This document shows, one piece after another, positions 8,632 to 48,774 of a stretch of 64,000 nt of DNA. A program made the translations under genes and the position numbers. Every line of letters begins with the position of its first letter. Position 1 is the first letter of the stretch. Below the pieces are notes generated by a model, which saw only the letters and a list, made by a program, of their open reading frames with translations, made no database searches and was not told the DNA's origin. Source of the stretch: Metallosphaera hakonensis JCM 8857 = DSM 7519 (GTDB lineage: Archaea > Thermoproteota > Thermoprotei_A > Sulfolobales > Sulfolobaceae); the NCBI RefSeq assembly GCF_003201675.2, contig NZ_CP029287.2, positions 1,972,001 through 2,036,000 on the forward strand, written 5' to 3'.

Positions 8632-10968
8632 TTGGTTACTCAAATTTTGAAAGAAGAGGGTATCCTTCCGTTCTCCAGAATAAGGAAAGACATGGTGGAA
8701 CTTGCTGGAGGAAAGGGAGCTAACCTCGGGGAACTCCTTAGCCAGGGGATCCGCGTACCCCCTGGCTTTGTTATTACCTCTAAGGCTTACTCGTACTTCC
8801 TAGATTATAACGGTTTAAGGGATCAGATTGTTTCAATTCTAAATGAGGAGAGCTCCTCTGAAAGGGCCAGTGAGAGAATTAAGGCTTTGATTCTCAGTTC
8901 AAAGGTTCCTCAGGACCTAGAGGAAATGATTTACAGCTCATACGACGAGCTTGTGAGGATAGTGGGTAAGGAGGTATTGGTGGCAGTCAGATCTTCAGCG
9001 ACTGCAGAAGATATAGAGAGCGCAAGTTTTGCTGGACAACAGGACACCTACCTTAACGTAAAGAAGGCAAACCTTATTGAAATGATAAAAGCGGTTTGGG
9101 CCAGCCTTTACAACGAGAGGGCAATAGAATACAGGAAAAGCAAGGGAATAGATTCGTCTAAGGTCGAGATGGCAGTAGTGGTTCAGAAAATGGTTAACTC
9201 GAGATCAGCCGGAGTTATGTTCACTCTTAATCCCTCGAACGGAGACAGGAACTTCATTGTAATCGAGTCGTCTTGGGGACTAGGCGAGACAGTAGTCGGG
9301 GGTAAGGTTACTCCAGATGAGGTAATAATAACCAAAGCCGACCTCAAGATAGTAGATAAGAGAATCTCGAGGAAGAACATGAAGATCGTATATGACCAAG
9401 GTAAGAACGTTGAAGTAACCTTAAACGGGGATGAGTGTGAGAGACCCAGTATCTCAGATGAAGAGGCGTTGGAGCTAGCTAAACTCGCTTTGAAGATAGA
9501 GCAACACTACGGTATGCCAATGGATATAGAGTGGGCTATAGATGCCGATATGAGTTTTCCTGAAAACGTATTCATTGTTCAGGCTAGACCTGAGACCTTC
9601 TGGGCATCCAGGTCAAAGGAGAAAGTTGAGGAGAAAAAGACTCAACCTAGCGAGAGGAAAGTTTTGGTAAAGGGACTGGCAGCCAGCCCTGGAATCGCGA
9701 GTGGAAAAGCAAGAGTTTTAGTGGACGTTAGAGAGGCTAAGGAGTTCCAAAAAGGCGAAATCCTTGTGACCAAGATGACTGATCCTGACTGGGTTCCAGT
9801 AATGAAGATTGCCTCAGCCATAGTCACAGATGAAGGCGGAATTACCAGTCACGCGGCAATAGTGTCCAGGGAGTTGGGAATACCGGCCATAGTAGGTGCT
9901 AAGGACGCCACTAAGGTATTAGAGACCGGACAGGAAATAACTGTCGATGCTACCCGTGGAGTGGTTTATGAAGGGAGAATAGTAAGTGAGGAGCCGAAGC
10001 CCGAGCAGACCCAAACCGGGGTTTCAGGTCTTTCAAGGGACGTACTCCTTAGCCTTTTTCCTGTTACTGGGACCAAGATATACATGAACCTAGGTCAACC
10101 AGACGTCATAGAGAAGTATTTGGATCTTCCATTTGACGGAATTGGTTTAATGAGAATTGAGTTTATCGTAAGCGAGTGGATTAAGCATCACCCTCTTTAT
10201 TTGATAAAGATAGGAAAACCAGACGAGTTCGTAAACAAGTTGGCTGATGGTATAGCTAGAGTCGCATCGGCCATATATCCAAGGCCAGTAGTAGTCAGGT
10301 TTTCCGACTTTAAGACCAATGAGTATAGGGGGTTGATAGGTGGAGAAGAGTTTGAGCCGGAGGAAAGGAACCCTATGATAGGATGGAGGGGGGTCTCACG
10401 TTACGTTAGCCAGCAGTATGAACCGGCGTTTAGGTTGGAAGTTAGGGCAATAAAAAAGGCTAGGGAGGAAATGGGTCTAAAGAACGTTTGGGTAATGTTT
10501 CCCTTCGTGAGGACAACGTGGGAACTAAATAAGGCTATTGGAATCATGGAGGACGAAGGATTGAGGAGAACTGCAGACTTTAAAGTATGGATAATGGCAG
10601 AAGTACCTTCGGTTGTAACCATGGCGGACGAGTTCTCTAAGATGGTCGACGGATTCAGTATAGGAAGTAATGATTTAGCGCAACTAACCCTTGGCGTTGA
10701 TAGGGACTCAGAGATTCTTGGAAGAATGGGCTACTACGACGAAAGGGATCCAGCTGTTCTGAGATCAATGAAGAAATTGATCAGGGTAGCCCATAAGTAC
10801 GGGAGGACCGTGTCAATTTGTGGTCAGGCCCCGAGCGTTTATCCCGAGGTTACGGAGTTCTTGGTAAAAGAGGGGATAGATAGCGTCAGTATAAACCCGG
10901 ACACAGTGATATACACAAGAAGACTTGTGGCTAGTATAGAACAGAAGTTACTTCTTAGAAAAAGATAA
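8632..10968 (+). CDS. ppsA: Phosphoenolpyruvate synthase
   Basis: Converts pyruvate, ATP and water to PEP, AMP and phosphate for gluconeogenesis. Domain order is normal: an N-terminal ATP-grasp part beginning with GGKGANLGE, a central swivelling domain with the phospho-histidine in [12 protein letters not shown] (about H407), and a C-terminal PEP/pyruvate barrel with the catalytic cysteine in SICGQAPS (about C730). The length of 778 residues is typical. The start is TTG; the preceding 108-nt gap contains AT-rich promoter-like sequence. Confidence 0.95.
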
Positions 10969-11208
10969 ACCTTGAATACATTTTTTGCATATTCTTCTTG
11001 AACCATTGGAAACACCGACGCACCTATCGCAGACTAGACTGCCGCACAGTTCACAGTATCCTATTGAGAGGTTTTTCCCGCAGACTTCACACATGCTCAT
11101 CTCGCAAACTGCACATACTCCCTCATTGAAGTGGAAATCGCATACTGACCTTCCACAGACACTGCAGGTATGAAGGGCAAGCCTATCCTCGCAAATTTCA
11201 CATTTCAA
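10948..11208 (-). CDS. Cysteine-rich zinc-binding protein
   Basis: A short protein packed with CxxC pairs (CEIC, CSVC, CAVC, CEVC, CELC, CDRC, CKKC), resembling tandem B-box or treble-clef zinc modules. Two starts are possible: ATG 11241 (97 residues) and TTG 11208 (86 residues). I prefer the TTG, because it lies right at the ino1 stop codon and puts the first CxxC at residues 3-6. It is downstream of ino1 and overlaps the ppsA end by 21 nt. The function is unknown; such modules usually mediate protein or nucleic-acid contacts. Confidence 0.75.
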
Positions 11209-12277
11209 TGAACTTCTTAAACCAGAGATAGGCCTCTTCATCGTCTTTAGCCTGCTTTGGCGGATGTTTAAAGTAAAAGGCCGATACTTCGTTTAATGGC
11301 CCACCGATTCCTCTATCCTTAGCCAATTTCACTGCCCTTATTACGTCAACAATAACTGAGGCGCAGTTGGACTTATCATCGACTTCAAGGCTAGCCTCCA
11401 CTTTAACTGGTCTTCCAGCGAATCCAGCCCCATTAACGTAAATGTATGCAACCTTAGTGTTTCCAAGGAATGGGACGTAGTCACTGGGACCTATTCTTAT
11501 CCTACCCTGGGTTTCTATCTCTTCATCGTTATCTAAGGTGCTAGTAACAGCTTTAGTTTTGCTTATTCTCTTGGAATGTAACCTTTCCTCGGTCTTCATG
11601 TTGAGGAAATCTGTGTTTCCCCCAACGTTAAGTTGGTAAGTTTCCTTAACCTTTACCCCTCTCAGCCTGAAAAGCGATGTTATTGCCCTATGAAATATGG
11701 TAGCACCGACCTGGCCCTTAACATCGTCTCCAGCTATTGGTATGCCAAGTTCCTTGAATCTCTTCGGGAACTCTCCGGTAGGATCGCTTGCAATAAACAC
11801 GGGTATTGCATTAATGAAACCGACTCTTGCCTCCAGTGAGGCGGTAGCATAGGTCCTTGAGGCAGTTTCGCTACCTACAGGTAACATATTTATAAGAATG
11901 TCAGCCCTGCTGTTCCTCAACTCTTCAACTACCGATTCTAAGTCCCCTCCGCCAGAGGGATTGAACACGCTACTCATATGAGGTGCAACTCCATCAAGGA
12001 CAGGCCCAGGGGAAACTTTGATTCCAAGCTTATCCATATCAACTATCCTTGGAGTTATGTTAGGCTTCTCAAATATGGCATCAGCGATGTCTTTCCCTAC
12101 CTTATTTGATGAGACATCGAAGGCCGCTACGATCTGAATGTCAGTTATTTTATATCCGCCTATAATTGGTGTAATTAGTCCATCAAAGTAGTTTTCTCCC
12201 ATCCTTCTGTAATATTCTATTCCTTGAATCAGCATGGACGCGCAATTTCCAAGTCCAGCTACGGCTATCCTAATCAT
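11198..12277 (-). CDS. ino1: Myo-inositol-1-phosphate synthase
   Basis: Converts glucose-6-phosphate to inositol-1-phosphate using NAD, the head-group precursor of archaeal inositol phospholipids. It begins with the dinucleotide-binding [12 protein letters not shown] and contains the [13 protein letters not shown] and [12 protein letters not shown] motifs of this enzyme family. The length of 359 residues is that of the short archaeal/actinobacterial type. Its stop overlaps the start of the zinc-protein gene, so the two are probably cotranscribed. Confidence 0.93.
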
Positions 12278-12280
12278 TGG

Positions 12281-12289
12281 TTTTTTAGG
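12281..12289 (+). promoter_or_regulatory. TATA-like box for the 12313 sRNA / acyP transcript
   Basis: A T-rich stretch (TTTTTTAGG) lies about 25-28 nt before position 12311. It would place transcription initiation just before the C box of the sRNA candidate. This is inferred from spacing only. Confidence 0.35.
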
Positions 12290-12312
12290 TTTGATAGGCA
12301 GTTAAAAATATA

Positions 12313-12360
12313 GTGATGAAAGGGATTTAGCCGAGTAGTGAGGAAGTGGAGCGACTCTGA
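12313..12360 (+). ncRNA. C/D-box sRNA candidate
   Basis: All four boxes are present in order: C GTGATGA (12313-12319), an 11-nt guide, D' CCGA (12331-12334), a 3-nt spacer, C' GTGAGGA (12338-12344), a 12-nt guide, D CTGA (12357-12360). This is the standard archaeal size and spacing for a 2'-O-methylation guide RNA. The D guide would pair with AGTCGCTCCACT and, by the N+5 rule, direct methylation at its first G after C. The D box ends only 9 nt before acyP, so the sRNA forms or overlaps the acyP leader. The target is not identified. Confidence 0.68.
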
Positions 12361-12369
12361 GGTGATAGT

Positions 12370-12645
12370 ATGGGCTTGGTGAGGTTGTATGCGGTGATTG
12401 AAGGAGAGGTCCAGGGAGTCGGGTTCAGAAGGTATGTGCAAATAAACGCTGTGAGACTGGGCATAAAGGGGTACGCAAGAAATCTGCCCGATGGAACGGT
12501 AGAGGTGGTAGCAGAGGGTTACGAGGAAACAATTCAGAAGTTTCTTAATTACCTCTGGAAAGGTCCTCCTCTAGCATTGGTTACCAAGGTTACACATAAG
12601 ATAGAGGAGTACAAAGGGGAGTTTACGTCCTTTGATACCTATTAG
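12370..12645 (+). CDS. acyP: Acylphosphatase
   Basis: Small cytoplasmic enzyme hydrolysing acyl phosphates such as 1,3-bisphosphoglycerate or carbamoyl phosphate. The signature [10 protein letters not shown] with the phosphate-binding arginine and [13 protein letters not shown] with the catalytic asparagine are both intact. The 91-residue length is standard. The gene starts 9 nt after the D box of the C/D-box sRNA candidate, so the two may share a transcript. Confidence 0.93.
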
Positions 12646-45323: not shown

Positions 45324-45461
45324 ATGAGAGTGATCACATTCAAGGCGGAAGAGGAGCTTCTCTTGAAGCTGGACCTCTACGCTGCGAACAAGAGAACTCC
45401 TAGGAGCGAGATAATAAGAGACGCATTAAGGAAATATTTAGAAGCCGCTGGCGGGATTTGA
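45324..45461 (+). CDS. Micro ribbon-helix-helix (CopG-type) DNA-binding protein
   Basis: A 45-residue protein too short for usual cut-offs. It has the exact RHH layout: strand RVITFKA (2-8), helix A EEELLLKLDLYAANK (9-23), turn R-TPRSE, helix B EIIRDALRKYLEAA (29-42). Such proteins bind DNA as dimers and act as repressors or antitoxins. The final 19 nt, including the TGA stop, overlap the 3' end of the opposite-strand tRNA-Thr gene. It lies 81 nt after sufD. Confidence 0.8.
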   Translation: MRVITFKAEEELLLKLDLYAANKRTPRSEIIRDALRKYLEAAGGI

Positions 45462-45531
45462 ACCCGCGACCGCCGGCTTACTTGGTTGTCCTTACAAGGC
45501 CGGCGCTCTGGCCAGGCTGAGCTACAGCGGC
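45443..45531 (-). tRNA. tRNA-Thr (TGT) with 14-nt intron
   Basis: A full cloverleaf can be drawn: acceptor GCCGCTG/CAGCGGC, D-stem GCTC/GAGC, anticodon stem CCGGC/GCCGG with loop CTTGTAA, T-loop TTCAAAT. The 75-nt mature tRNA is interrupted by a 14-nt intron at the canonical position after 37 (about 45478-45491). Discriminator U, as expected for archaeal Thr. CCA is not encoded. Confidence 0.95.
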
Positions 45532-45612
45532 ACGTAAATCTATTTTACTGATAACCCATTAAAATCTAACTCCAGAGATTGCCTCTCATGTGATCTAGTG
45601 GAGAATGTGAGG

Positions 45613-45700
45613 TGCCGCCGCGGGGATTTGAACCCCGGACGACCGGATGTCCCAGCATCCGTATGAGTCCGGCGCTCTGGCCAGGCTGAGCTACGGCGGC
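45613..45700 (-). tRNA. tRNA-Met (CAT, elongator) with 13-nt intron
   Basis: Acceptor GCCGCCG/CGGCGGC, anticodon stem CCGGA/TCCGG with CAT anticodon, T-loop TTCAAAT. A 13-nt intron (about 45649-45661) lies after position 37. The absence of the initiator-type GGG/CCC anticodon stem excludes initiator Met. Ile2 (modified CAT) is a less likely alternative because elongator Met is the one usually intron-bearing. Discriminator A; CCA is not encoded. Confidence 0.92.
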
Positions 45701-46081
45701 AAGTTATCATGAAATCATATAGCCTAAAAATTTTCTGTCTAGGGTTTCCAGTCCCGTCAGTCTCTCAAAGTATAAACCAGATTAACGAGTTAAACAGCCG
45801 TATCATGGAATTCCCTGTAGAATTAGTATTCCTCTCAGACAGGGTTGCGCAGAGTTATCAGTTTCGTTAATTGAATATCAGGATATCCACTCCATGTCTC
45901 TAAAATCTCTATATGCTAACCTACCGTGGAGGTTGCGTACAGGTTACCTGTAATCACTAGAGGTTCAACTAATTATTTTATAAAATATCGTTAATCTCAA
46001 GTAAAGAAGGTAACAGAAACGTCAACGTTTTCATAAATTGATACAGAGAAGCCTCAGATATGCGTCAGTTTCCTTTTAACA
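45701..46081. other. Gene-free region
   Basis: 380 nt between tRNA-Met and the YdjM-like gene 3' end. No frame or RNA motif found. A loose inverted repeat CCCTGT/ACAGGG spans about 45812-45845. Confidence 0.5.
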
Positions 46082-46948
46082 TTACATAATTATCTCCTTA
46101 AATCTCCACTTAACGTGTATTAGGGCTAAGATGAAGCCTATCCCAAAGCAGAGCAGTCCTAATTCTATCGTATCATTATCAAGTAATGAATTAGGAGAGT
46201 AAAGTTGAGCTCCTTGAAGTAGGATGAGAGCCAGTCCAATGGTCATCCCTCCCATGATGAGTCCCTTAGTCAAAGTGCCAACATAGATGAATTGAAGCTT
46301 CCTTCTCCATAATTCTCCCAGCACGTAAAAAATAATTATTCCTGTATCAATTAGCCCAAATTTAATGAAAGCCAGCTCAAGAAATTCCTCCCACCATCCC
46401 AACAGATTATTAATGTTGTAGAGTTGAGTGAAGATGAAGCTACCGTAAAATATTGTCCAATCGGCTAGTCTGCTATTCTTAAAGGGGCCATAGATCCTGA
46501 TCCACGGTATCTTTTTAGGTTCTCTAAGTCCAGGATCTGCAGTCCTATTAATCAGGGAAGCTGGATCTTCTAAGTACCACATGATCCCCTTGGATCTTGA
46601 GATCTTTCCATCGTAGTGGAGCTTAAAGGCGTTCACGATTCTCCCCAACGGGAAGAAGGGCTCAATTCCCCTATCGGTGGGAGACGTTAGGAGGTCAAGG
46701 GCCATATGAAGAAAAATCCCTAATCCAAGGTAGAGGTTAAAGTAAGTGATCAGGGTTGCAACGAAGATATTATGGAAGAGCGCCCTATGAAGTTGATATT
46801 TAGCGAAAACCTTTCTTCTGGTGAAGATGTATTCTCTATCTAGGTCTGGGAGAGCTGCACCTATCCCAACTAAGATTGCAACTTCAAGGTTATGAAAAGC
46901 TGCCAATCCCACAGCTAAGGCAAAGGCGATGTGTGAGTTTAGATTCAT
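46082..46948 (-). CDS. Membrane-bound metal-dependent hydrolase, YdjM/DUF457 type
   Basis: 288 residues, multi-pass membrane protein. The N-terminal half has the family pattern: H7 in the first helix, GAALPDLD near residue 34, HRALFHN near residue 54 and a following helix with FLHMALDLLTSPTDRG. These His/Asp residues are thought to bind metal. A loop of about 70 charged residues precedes three or four more helices. The exact substrate of the family is unknown. Standing alone between RNA genes, it has no informative neighbours. Confidence 0.82.
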   Translation of the reverse strand: MNLNSHIAFALAVGLAAFHNLEVAILVGIGAALPDLDREYIFTRRKVFAKYQLHRALFHNIFVATLITYFNLYLGLGIFLHMALDLLTSPTDRGIEPFFPLGRIVNAFKLHYDGKISRSKGIMWYLEDPASLINRTADPGLREPKKIPWIRIYGPFKNSRLADWTIFYGSFIFTQLYNINNLLGWWEEFLELAFIKFGLIDTGIIIFYVLGELWRRKLQFIYVGTLTKGLIMGGMTIGLALILLQGAQLYSPNSLLDNDTIELGLLCFGIGFILALIHVKWRFKEIIM

Positions 46949-47556
46949 GAATGATTGAAGTTCCTTTTCCCTTTATCTGTAATGTTCGAGTTTCTGAAAT
47001 GATTCCAAGTTGCTGCTCTTTAAGAGTCACGTAAGATCAAATTGTAACTACTAGGGGTAAGGGTTTCTTACAGCACCAGAAATCATAAGATCGAGTAATC
47101 GATTGATTTGATAATTATCAAGGCTTTTAGTTAAGGGCGTGATAATAAGGTCATGGGTAATAAGACTTTCACTAGTACTTCCGAAAAGTTTAAAACGTTC
47201 TGTAATGATCTAGAAGAACAGAAAATTTAGTAGGGGCTTGCGAGATGGAAAAGGACGTTAAGGTGAGGGAGAATGAGGCTTCCGTGTATAGATGTGTAAG
47301 AAACGTCGTTTTCAGGTAAAGTATGCAACTATAATTGATAGTCCCAAAATACTTGGGGCTAGATAAAATTGAGTGTTCATAACTTTCCGGAAATACTAAC
47401 CTTTGGTGATATAAGAATTCGTGAGGTCAAGGGCAAGTATTACGACTAGTTTAGAGAGAATGACTCCAGTGGTATGAGAAGGGATCATTACGTGGGATCT
47501 TTAGATGAGGTCGTGAAAATAGCATTGTGGGTTTTTGGGGTTAACCCCAATAAAGA
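46949..47556. other. Gene-free region with possible coding debris
   Basis: 608 nt upstream of tRNA-Gln on the plus strand. Several short, codon-like fragments separated by stops are seen, the last (about 47432-47530) reading KYYD-stop-FRENDSSGMRRDHYVGSLDEVVK, which resembles an integrase-type N-terminal segment. No intact gene. Confidence 0.4.
47535..47550. repeat. 16-bp perfect palindrome after tRNA-Gln(TTG)
   Basis: TTGGGGTTAACCCCAA begins 7 nt past the 3' end of the minus-strand tRNA. A similar GGGGTA/TACCCC repeat follows the second tRNA-Gln gene. It may act in termination or 3' processing. Confidence 0.55.
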
Positions 47557-47629
47557 TAGCCGGGCAGGGATTCGAACCCTGGTCCCAGGGGCCAAAGCCC
47601 TGGATACTTGGCCGCTATACTACCCGGCT
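47557..47629 (-). tRNA. tRNA-Gln (TTG)
   Basis: Acceptor AGCCGGG/CCCGGCT, anticodon stem CAGGG/CCCTG with loop CTTTGGC (anticodon TTG), T-loop TTCGAAT, discriminator A. 73 nt with no intron and no encoded CCA. A TTTAAATATA box lies about 20-30 nt upstream on the minus strand. Confidence 0.95.
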
Positions 47630-48014
47630 AAGACCAGAATTATACACTATATTTAAAAACCTTATCCTGAAAAATTGAGGCATAACCATTATATGCCGTT
47701 TACCAAAGACCTTGGCTTAAACCTACAATCGAGCTACACCAGATATAATTGATTAATATTCACTACCGAAATTAACTAGATAGTATTCTTAGACATTAAC
47801 GCTCTTTACGAACGTAGCTATTGCGTGGTTTATCGAGTAGAAGTGGAAGGGAAGACTCAAGAGTTGAGCCGATGCCGTCGTAGAGATTATGAAAATCTTT
47901 AGCTCTTCCATGCCTTTCCATCGGTCAAAGCGGATCGATATAGGTGTAAGAAGGTGACTCAAAGAAGATTAATGAGTTCTACATTAGCAGTGGGGGTATG
48001 GATTACCCCTACAA
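47630..48014. other. Gene-free region between the two tRNA-Gln genes
   Basis: 385 nt without a recognisable gene. It holds the tRNA-Gln(TTG) promoter at its left end and, at its right end, the inverted repeat following tRNA-Gln(CTG). Confidence 0.5.
47993..48009. repeat. Inverted repeat after tRNA-Gln(CTG)
   Basis: GGGGTA, 5 nt, TACCCC, starting 6 nt beyond the tRNA 3' end. It mirrors in position and core sequence the palindrome after tRNA-Gln(TTG). Confidence 0.55.
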
Positions 48015-48087
<73 letters not shown>

Positions 48088-48700
48088 AATTATCCTTAAT
48101 GGACTCAATGTTATAAAATTTCGCTTAACCTATACCATGTAGTCACAGAGATCGCTTGTTAAGCACGGAGTTTTTACATTTTTGGAATCCCAACTGTGCC
48201 AAAGAGATAGGTAGTGAAGGCTCTATGAGGGTTAGAAAACACAGGACCGACTTCCGAATCGGCCAATCATTAGTTTTTCTCGATCCAAGCCAAGGTCTAG
48301 GGCGGAAGGCTGAAACTATACCTCACCGAGGTGAGAAATTCTCGGCTTTTAGCACAGGGACATTTCAAATTCTAAGAAGATCTTGTCTAATAGGTCGATT
48401 ATATTTGATATTTTACGCTATTTCAATATATCATGAGGGTATCATCCAAAGTTAGCCAACTAGATATTCATGGGTGATTCAGGGGTCCTTTGCGAATTCA
48501 GTTTATTTAGAAAAATAGAATCAATTTAATTGAATGCTCCCGTAGGGACTAGGTAGGGATTCACGCTTAACGATTTCCCTTTATTTTATCTACCTCAGTC
48601 ATAATTACAATTCGCAATTGACACCTGAATCGCCCATATTCATTTGGATGTTATATCTGAAATGGTAAACGAGTTCAACAAATTTAGGATCTGAATGTGG
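48088..48700. other. Gene-free region with possible IS200/IS605-type end
   Basis: 613 nt. Between about 48228 and 48400 the plus strand encodes an open frame containing LDPSQGLGRKAET and HRGEKFSAF, which resembles C-terminal tails of TnpB-type transposases, followed by overlapping hairpins (CTCACC/GGTGAG; CCGAG/CTCGG) and CTTTT. It may be the worn right end of such an element; no intact transposase is present. Confidence 0.35.
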
Positions 48701-48774
48701 CGGGCCCGCCGGGATTCGGACCCGGGGCCTACGGGTTAAAAGCCCGCCGCTCTACCTAGCTGAGCTACGGGCCC
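48701..48774 (-). tRNA. tRNA-Lys (TTT), atypical T-loop, CCA encoded
   Basis: Acceptor GGGCCCG/CGGGCCC, D-stem GCTC/GAGC, anticodon stem GCGGG/CCCGT with loop CTTTTAA (TTT), discriminator G. The T-loop reads TCCGAAT instead of TTCGAAT, so the nearly universal U55 is C. Immediately after the discriminator the genome encodes CCA (48698-48700), unlike the four other tRNAs here. All stems pair, so it is likely functional, but the loop is odd. Confidence 0.88.

Follow-up and report, generated by a model that had tools for sequence, protein, structure and literature searches.

The locus described here lies between two divergent genes of Metallosphaera hakonensis, ino1 (myo-inositol-1-phosphate synthase) and acyP (acylphosphatase), in the 64 kb stretch of DNA that was analysed as a whole and is called the window. 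The features are listed in Table 1. The region between the two genes contains a complete C/D-box sRNA, which is already catalogued as sR2. Its boxes occur in the order C, D', C' and D, and both guides fall within the 9-13 nt of the C/D guide architecture. In a regular-expression scan of both strands of the window, positions 12313-12360 were the sole match to the full architecture. The Rfam model sR2 (RF01139, C/D box) aligns to positions 12309-12362 with 55.2 bits (E 2.9e-9), which exceeds the gathering score of 42, and the window copy matches the whole 57-position model above this curated cut-off.

Table 1. Positions of the genes, sRNA elements and probable promoter motifs in the window
Feature	Position	Strand	Basis
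ino1, myo-inositol-1-phosphate synthase, 359 aa, divergent neighbour	11198..12277	-	ORF; Pfam PF01658, E 7.1e-33
TTTTTA, TATA-like, at -31 from the C box; probable promoter of sR2(-acyP)	12282..12287	+	YTTWWA spacing
AT-rich block, TATTTTTAA on the minus strand, probable ino1 promoter	12302..12311	-	A+T content, spacing
C/D-box sRNA sR2, C box to D box	12313..12360	+	Rfam RF01139 match and conservation
C box GTGATGA	12313..12319	+	Sequence; 98% mean pairwise identity, 30 genomes
D' guide AAGGGATTTAG, 11 nt	12320..12330	+	46% mean pairwise identity (alignment); differs between genera
D' box CCGA	12331..12334	+	Sequence; GA invariant in alignment
C' box GTGAGGA	12338..12344	+	Sequence; TGA invariant in alignment
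D guide AGTGGAGCGACT, 12 nt	12345..12356	+	Core 12346-12355 invariant in 30/30
D box CTGA	12357..12360	+	Invariant in 30/30
acyP Shine-Dalgarno sequence TGAGGTGAT, three bases shared with the D box	12358..12366	+	Complement of 16S 3' end
acyP, acylphosphatase, 91 aa	12370..12645	+	ORF; Pfam PF00708, E 1.1e-26

A chance resemblance of the intergenic region to a C/D sRNA is hardly credible. The shortness of the single box motifs is all that was found to speak for it, and against it stand the sole full match in the window, the Rfam match and the conservation of the element in 31 genomes. A chance origin of the pattern was rejected because 300 first-order Markov simulations of the window gave 0 matches to the full architecture. 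A preliminary description of this DNA had placed the four boxes here, with guides of 11 and 12 nt and the acyP start nine nucleotides past the D box. The boxes and guides were found exactly there, and the gap is likewise correct, with the acyP ATG at position 12370. The same description had proposed a C/D methylation guide, and this is supported by the Rfam match, the conserved boxes and the target of the D guide.

Conservation and promoters of the locus

The Rfam covariance model identified sR2 in 30 of 31 Sulfolobaceae genomes, representing all 11 of 11 genera. The pattern GTGGAGCGACNCTGA, which combines the guide and the D box, occurs in exactly one copy per genome in 31/31 Sulfolobaceae, including the genome missed by the model. 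Other copies from the family also score above the Rfam cut-off (for example 59.6 bits for locus L002 and 54.6 bits for L008), while those at L027, L028 and L031 fall below it although they have the same guide and the same neighbouring genes. The RF01139 consensus has two D-guide bases that are missing from the Sulfolobaceae members aligned here. The order ino1 (divergent), sR2, acyP was observed in all 31 genomes; these genomes share ancestry, and 31/31 does not represent 31 independent events.

An ungapped comparison of 30 genomes gave 98-100% identity for C box, D guide and D box plus the following GG, and 80% for the C' box. Low identity was found just upstream of the sRNA (32%), in the spacer before acyP (37%) and in the first acyP codons (32%). 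The preliminary description had named conservation of the boxes with drifting flanks as support for its reading, and such a contrast is present (98-100% for boxes C and D and the D guide, versus 32-46% for the flanks, the D' guide and the first acyP codons). The loss of boxes beside persisting neighbours, which it had regarded as a refutation, was not seen in any of the 31 Sulfolobaceae genomes; the boxes and both flanking genes are retained in every one.

Upstream of the C box, a YTTWWA motif starting at positions -36 to -27, usually at -31, is present in 28 of 30 genomes, compared with 11% of shuffled upstream sequences. This spacing supports the presence of a promoter belonging to sR2 itself, at the -31 TATA-like motif. 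For the TATA-like box that had been mentioned earlier without coordinates, the motif at a suitable distance is TTTTTA at 12282-12287. The AT-rich block at 12302-12311 was also considered as the sRNA's own TATA box and was rejected on spacing, as it lies too near the C box. Positions -11 to -5 from the C box are 93-100% A+T over the 30 genomes. The block fits an ino1 promoter because its distance from the ino1 start, about 30 nt, is the one expected for a leaderless ino1 mRNA; no more than 15 of 30 genomes, however, have the motif about 30 nt upstream of ino1. Should both assignments be right, the two promoters would interlock over some 30 bp.

In the window, the divergent promoters at 12278-12312 are apparently interlocked and may compete: the TATA-like motif of sR2 adjoins the ino1 start codon, and the ino1 motif adjoins the C box of sR2. 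At the other end of ino1, its 3' end is overlapped by a cysteine-rich ORF of 97 aa with repeated CxxC (10948-11241, minus strand), for which no match was found in Pfam.

Predicted target of the D guide

The core of the D guide, GTGGAGCGAC, is invariant in 30/30 Sulfolobaceae. It can form 10 contiguous Watson-Crick pairs with the sequence 5'-GTCGCTCCAC-3' in helix 44 of 16S rRNA. Through alignment to the E. coli 16S rRNA, this target was assigned to positions 1405-1414, so that the N+5 nucleotide corresponds to E. coli position 1408 and faces position 12352 of the window. The fifth guide nucleotide before the D box is Watson-Crick paired, with a G at the equivalent of 1408 in the relative used. 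The target was read in this relative, a contig of Candidatus Aramenus (Sulfolobaceae; L085), because the 3' half of the M. hakonensis 16S gene is masked (2,500 bases of the rRNA operon are given as N). The archaeal helix-44 sequence ACACACCGCCCGTCGCTCCACC was checked against the genome collection and has exact matches in 70 stretches, nearly all archaeal by title.

Based on this complementarity, which is directly legible in the sequence, the D guide probably directs 2'-O-methylation of helix 44 at E. coli 1408, in the decoding site. Of the two guides put forward in the preliminary description, the D guide thus has a target in 16S helix 44, while the D' guide is unconserved and without an established target.

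In the portion of Dennis et al. 2015 (PMC4644070) drawn on here, methylation at E. coli A1408 was independently predicted for S. acidocaldarius and N. equitans, which places the helix-44 prediction at the same site and, with S. acidocaldarius, in the same archaeal family. That portion of the text names no sRNA, and the link between A1408 and sR2 is drawn here from the guide sequence. No mention of 2'-O-methylation at 1408 was found in the searched main text of a paper on the S. solfataricus ribosome.

It is very unlikely that the D guide instead targets a hairpin in 23S rRNA (G000:C1:1907135-1907144, GTCGCTCCAT), where M. hakonensis has in its own 23S a 10-bp match including one G-U pair. Among the searched genomes the exact 20 bases of this hairpin occur only in M. 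hakonensis, with one mismatch in one congener, whereas the D guide is invariant across the family and beyond; the 16S match, moreover, is perfect and its target widespread. The 23S match was rejected and taken as chance, the hairpin being missing from nearly all relatives. A tRNA target was also rejected: GTCGCTCCAC has two further copies in the genome, and no tRNA was detected in the stretches around them.

Overlap of the D box with the acyP Shine-Dalgarno sequence

In the window, the D box CTGA continues directly into GGTGAT, so that k-turn-forming boxes overlap or flank the ribosome-binding site of acyP. Starting within the D box, TGAGGTGAT is a nine-base perfect complement of the 16S 3' end ATCACCTCA; in the relative L085 the 16S gene ends in GGATCACCTCA. 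Because CTGA followed by GG gives TGAGGTGAT, the D box is, by its sequence, part of the acyP Shine-Dalgarno sequence. The GG directly 3' of the D box is present in 31/31 Sulfolobaceae and in 5 of 34 loci elsewhere (Fisher p 2e-13, related genomes not being independent), and GGTG follows the D box in 26 of the 30 fully read Sulfolobaceae copies. The acyP start lies 9-12 nt past the D box in nearly all members of the family. An alternative role of the GG in a terminal stem, paired with the other side of the k-turn, was rejected, since 26/30 Sulfolobaceae copies form at most one such pair.

One genome (G020, locus L028:1501-1580) has ACG at the acyP start position instead of ATG, GTG or TTG. It also has an in-frame GTG within the Shine-Dalgarno sequence, and its acyP start is either non-standard or shifted.

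In S. solfataricus, 73% of mRNAs are leaderless, a value cited in the part of PMC11698992 used here. As most mRNAs there are leaderless, a strong Shine-Dalgarno sequence at the first protein gene of a transcription unit fits acyP as the second member of an sR2-acyP transcript. No description of sR2 upstream of acyP was found in the literature search, which covered open-licence papers; the family-wide fusion of D box and Shine-Dalgarno sequence, likewise without a description in those papers, appears to be new. The presence of the sRNA is ordinary, as the family is known. Interest is added by the gene order and the fusion in 31 genomes, together with a guide that is predicted to act at the decoding site.

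What can be read from the genomes themselves is the sRNA and how it is conserved, the pairing potential with its target, the fixed gene order and the overlap of Shine-Dalgarno sequence and D box. The explanation that we consider best (probability about 0.7) is that the 1408 guide sR2 is also the acyP leader, and that a single transcript ends up either in a guide RNP or as acyP mRNA. We infer that sR2 and acyP are co-transcribed, that 1408 is methylated and that each transcript is used in only one of the two ways. Transcription of the sRNA would be driven by a TATA-like box of its own and would read on into acyP, making sR2 the acyP 5' leader. The D guide would bring fibrillarin to the helix-44 nucleotide for 2'-O-methylation, and acyP would be translated from the Shine-Dalgarno sequence that begins with the three final bases of the D box. 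Each RNA molecule would be either packed with L7Ae, Nop5 and fibrillarin and trimmed to the guide, or used as acyP mRNA; packing would mask, and trimming would remove, the Shine-Dalgarno sequence on that molecule.

This arrangement has a precedent in S. acidocaldarius, where L7Ae autoregulates by binding a k-turn in the leader of its own mRNA, masking of the adjacent Shine-Dalgarno sequence has been proposed, and mutations of the l7ae leader k-turn raise reporter activity 1.6-fold (PMC5539422). The likeness lies in a C/D-like k-turn directly beside a downstream Shine-Dalgarno sequence. Unlike the l7ae element, sR2 is a complete guide RNA whose rRNA target is conserved, it lies in front of acyP, and repression by it is a prediction. 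A second likeness concerns 5'-overlapping or adjacent C/D genes (Tripp 2017, as cited in the part of PMC7994747 used here), in which an sRNA lies at the start of a protein gene and one transcript can hold both; 5'-overlapping genes were reported to lower expression of a downstream reporter. Unlike those genes, sR2 overlaps the Shine-Dalgarno sequence rather than the coding sequence, and this overlap is kept throughout the family. By analogy, acyP would be expected to be silenced on any molecule on which sR2 is packed. As the D box forms part of the Shine-Dalgarno sequence, making the sRNA should work against acyP translation instead of going along with it, which is the opposite of the earlier proposal that release of the sRNA is tied to acyP expression.

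Two other readings of the leader were weighed. One of them, to which we give somewhat less than an even chance, has the same anatomy as our best explanation and departs from it only in the final step: sR2 would be a plain guide using the same promoter as acyP, the overlap would reflect a thrifty, compact leader with no regulatory effect, and guide-length and full-length transcripts would both be in excess. All of the sequence evidence is equally compatible with it. Archaeal C/D genes near or over gene starts are known, and most need no special maturation signals (PMC7994747); moreover, the Shine-Dalgarno consensus naturally contains TGA and is therefore easily accommodated at a D box. A purely economical overlap is harder to reconcile with the placement of the RNP footprint on the ribosome-binding site, with the L7Ae/Shine-Dalgarno precedent in S. 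acidocaldarius and with an arrangement unbroken in 31/31 genomes. The other reading, which we regard as improbable, assumes separate transcripts: sR2 would start from the -31 TATA box and end after the D box, and the acyP mRNA would be driven by the AT-rich block, starting about 26 nt downstream of the block, within the sRNA. The acyP leader would then lack the C box and would be unable to form a guide RNP. The block, nearly pure A+T at positions -11 to -5 in all genomes, could act on the plus strand too, but its distance of about 30 nt from the ino1 start on the minus strand explains its conservation without a second plus-strand promoter.

The either/or use of one transcript can be extended to a broader and more doubtful proposal, which we put forward only tentatively: sR2 and acyP would be mutually exclusive products of one RNA throughout the Sulfolobaceae, with acyP translation falling when guide-RNP proteins are plentiful and rising when they are scarce. 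If this mutual exclusion is true, acylphosphatase output would be linked to the ribosome-modification machinery. Were the fusion to work as a switch, Sulfolobales would have, after l7ae, a second and naturally conserved example of translational control by k-turn proteins.

Loci with the same guide in other families

The same guide followed by CTGA was also identified in three other families (f3, f5 and f9), in different settings. These loci were not seen ahead of acyP and mostly lack the GG; the distribution of the guide is wider than its link with acyP. In f9, the bases after the D box are mostly C(A/G)CC, and a terminal stem of 5-8 bp with a candidate C box was found in 7 of 13 loci. In f3 (L041-L053), a simple pattern placed the 1408 guide in the D' slot, followed by a second guide, in 10/14 loci.

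Several additional observations concern these families. In f5 (L055-L058 and L060), the guide RNA is usually followed by a pyruvate-kinase-like gene, judged by its MGPST start, and these loci represent another candidate guide RNA leading a metabolic gene. In f3, a C' box comes after the 1408 guide and then a second guide that differs from it (GCGACTATCCT or a similar sequence), and one guide appears able to occupy either slot of a C/D RNA. Several f3 loci lie directly after a tRNA gene. The window itself contains five tRNA genes at 45443-48774 (minus strand), and in two of these, 45443-45531 and 45613-45700, the region of the anticodon loop is longer by about 15 bases, which are probably introns.
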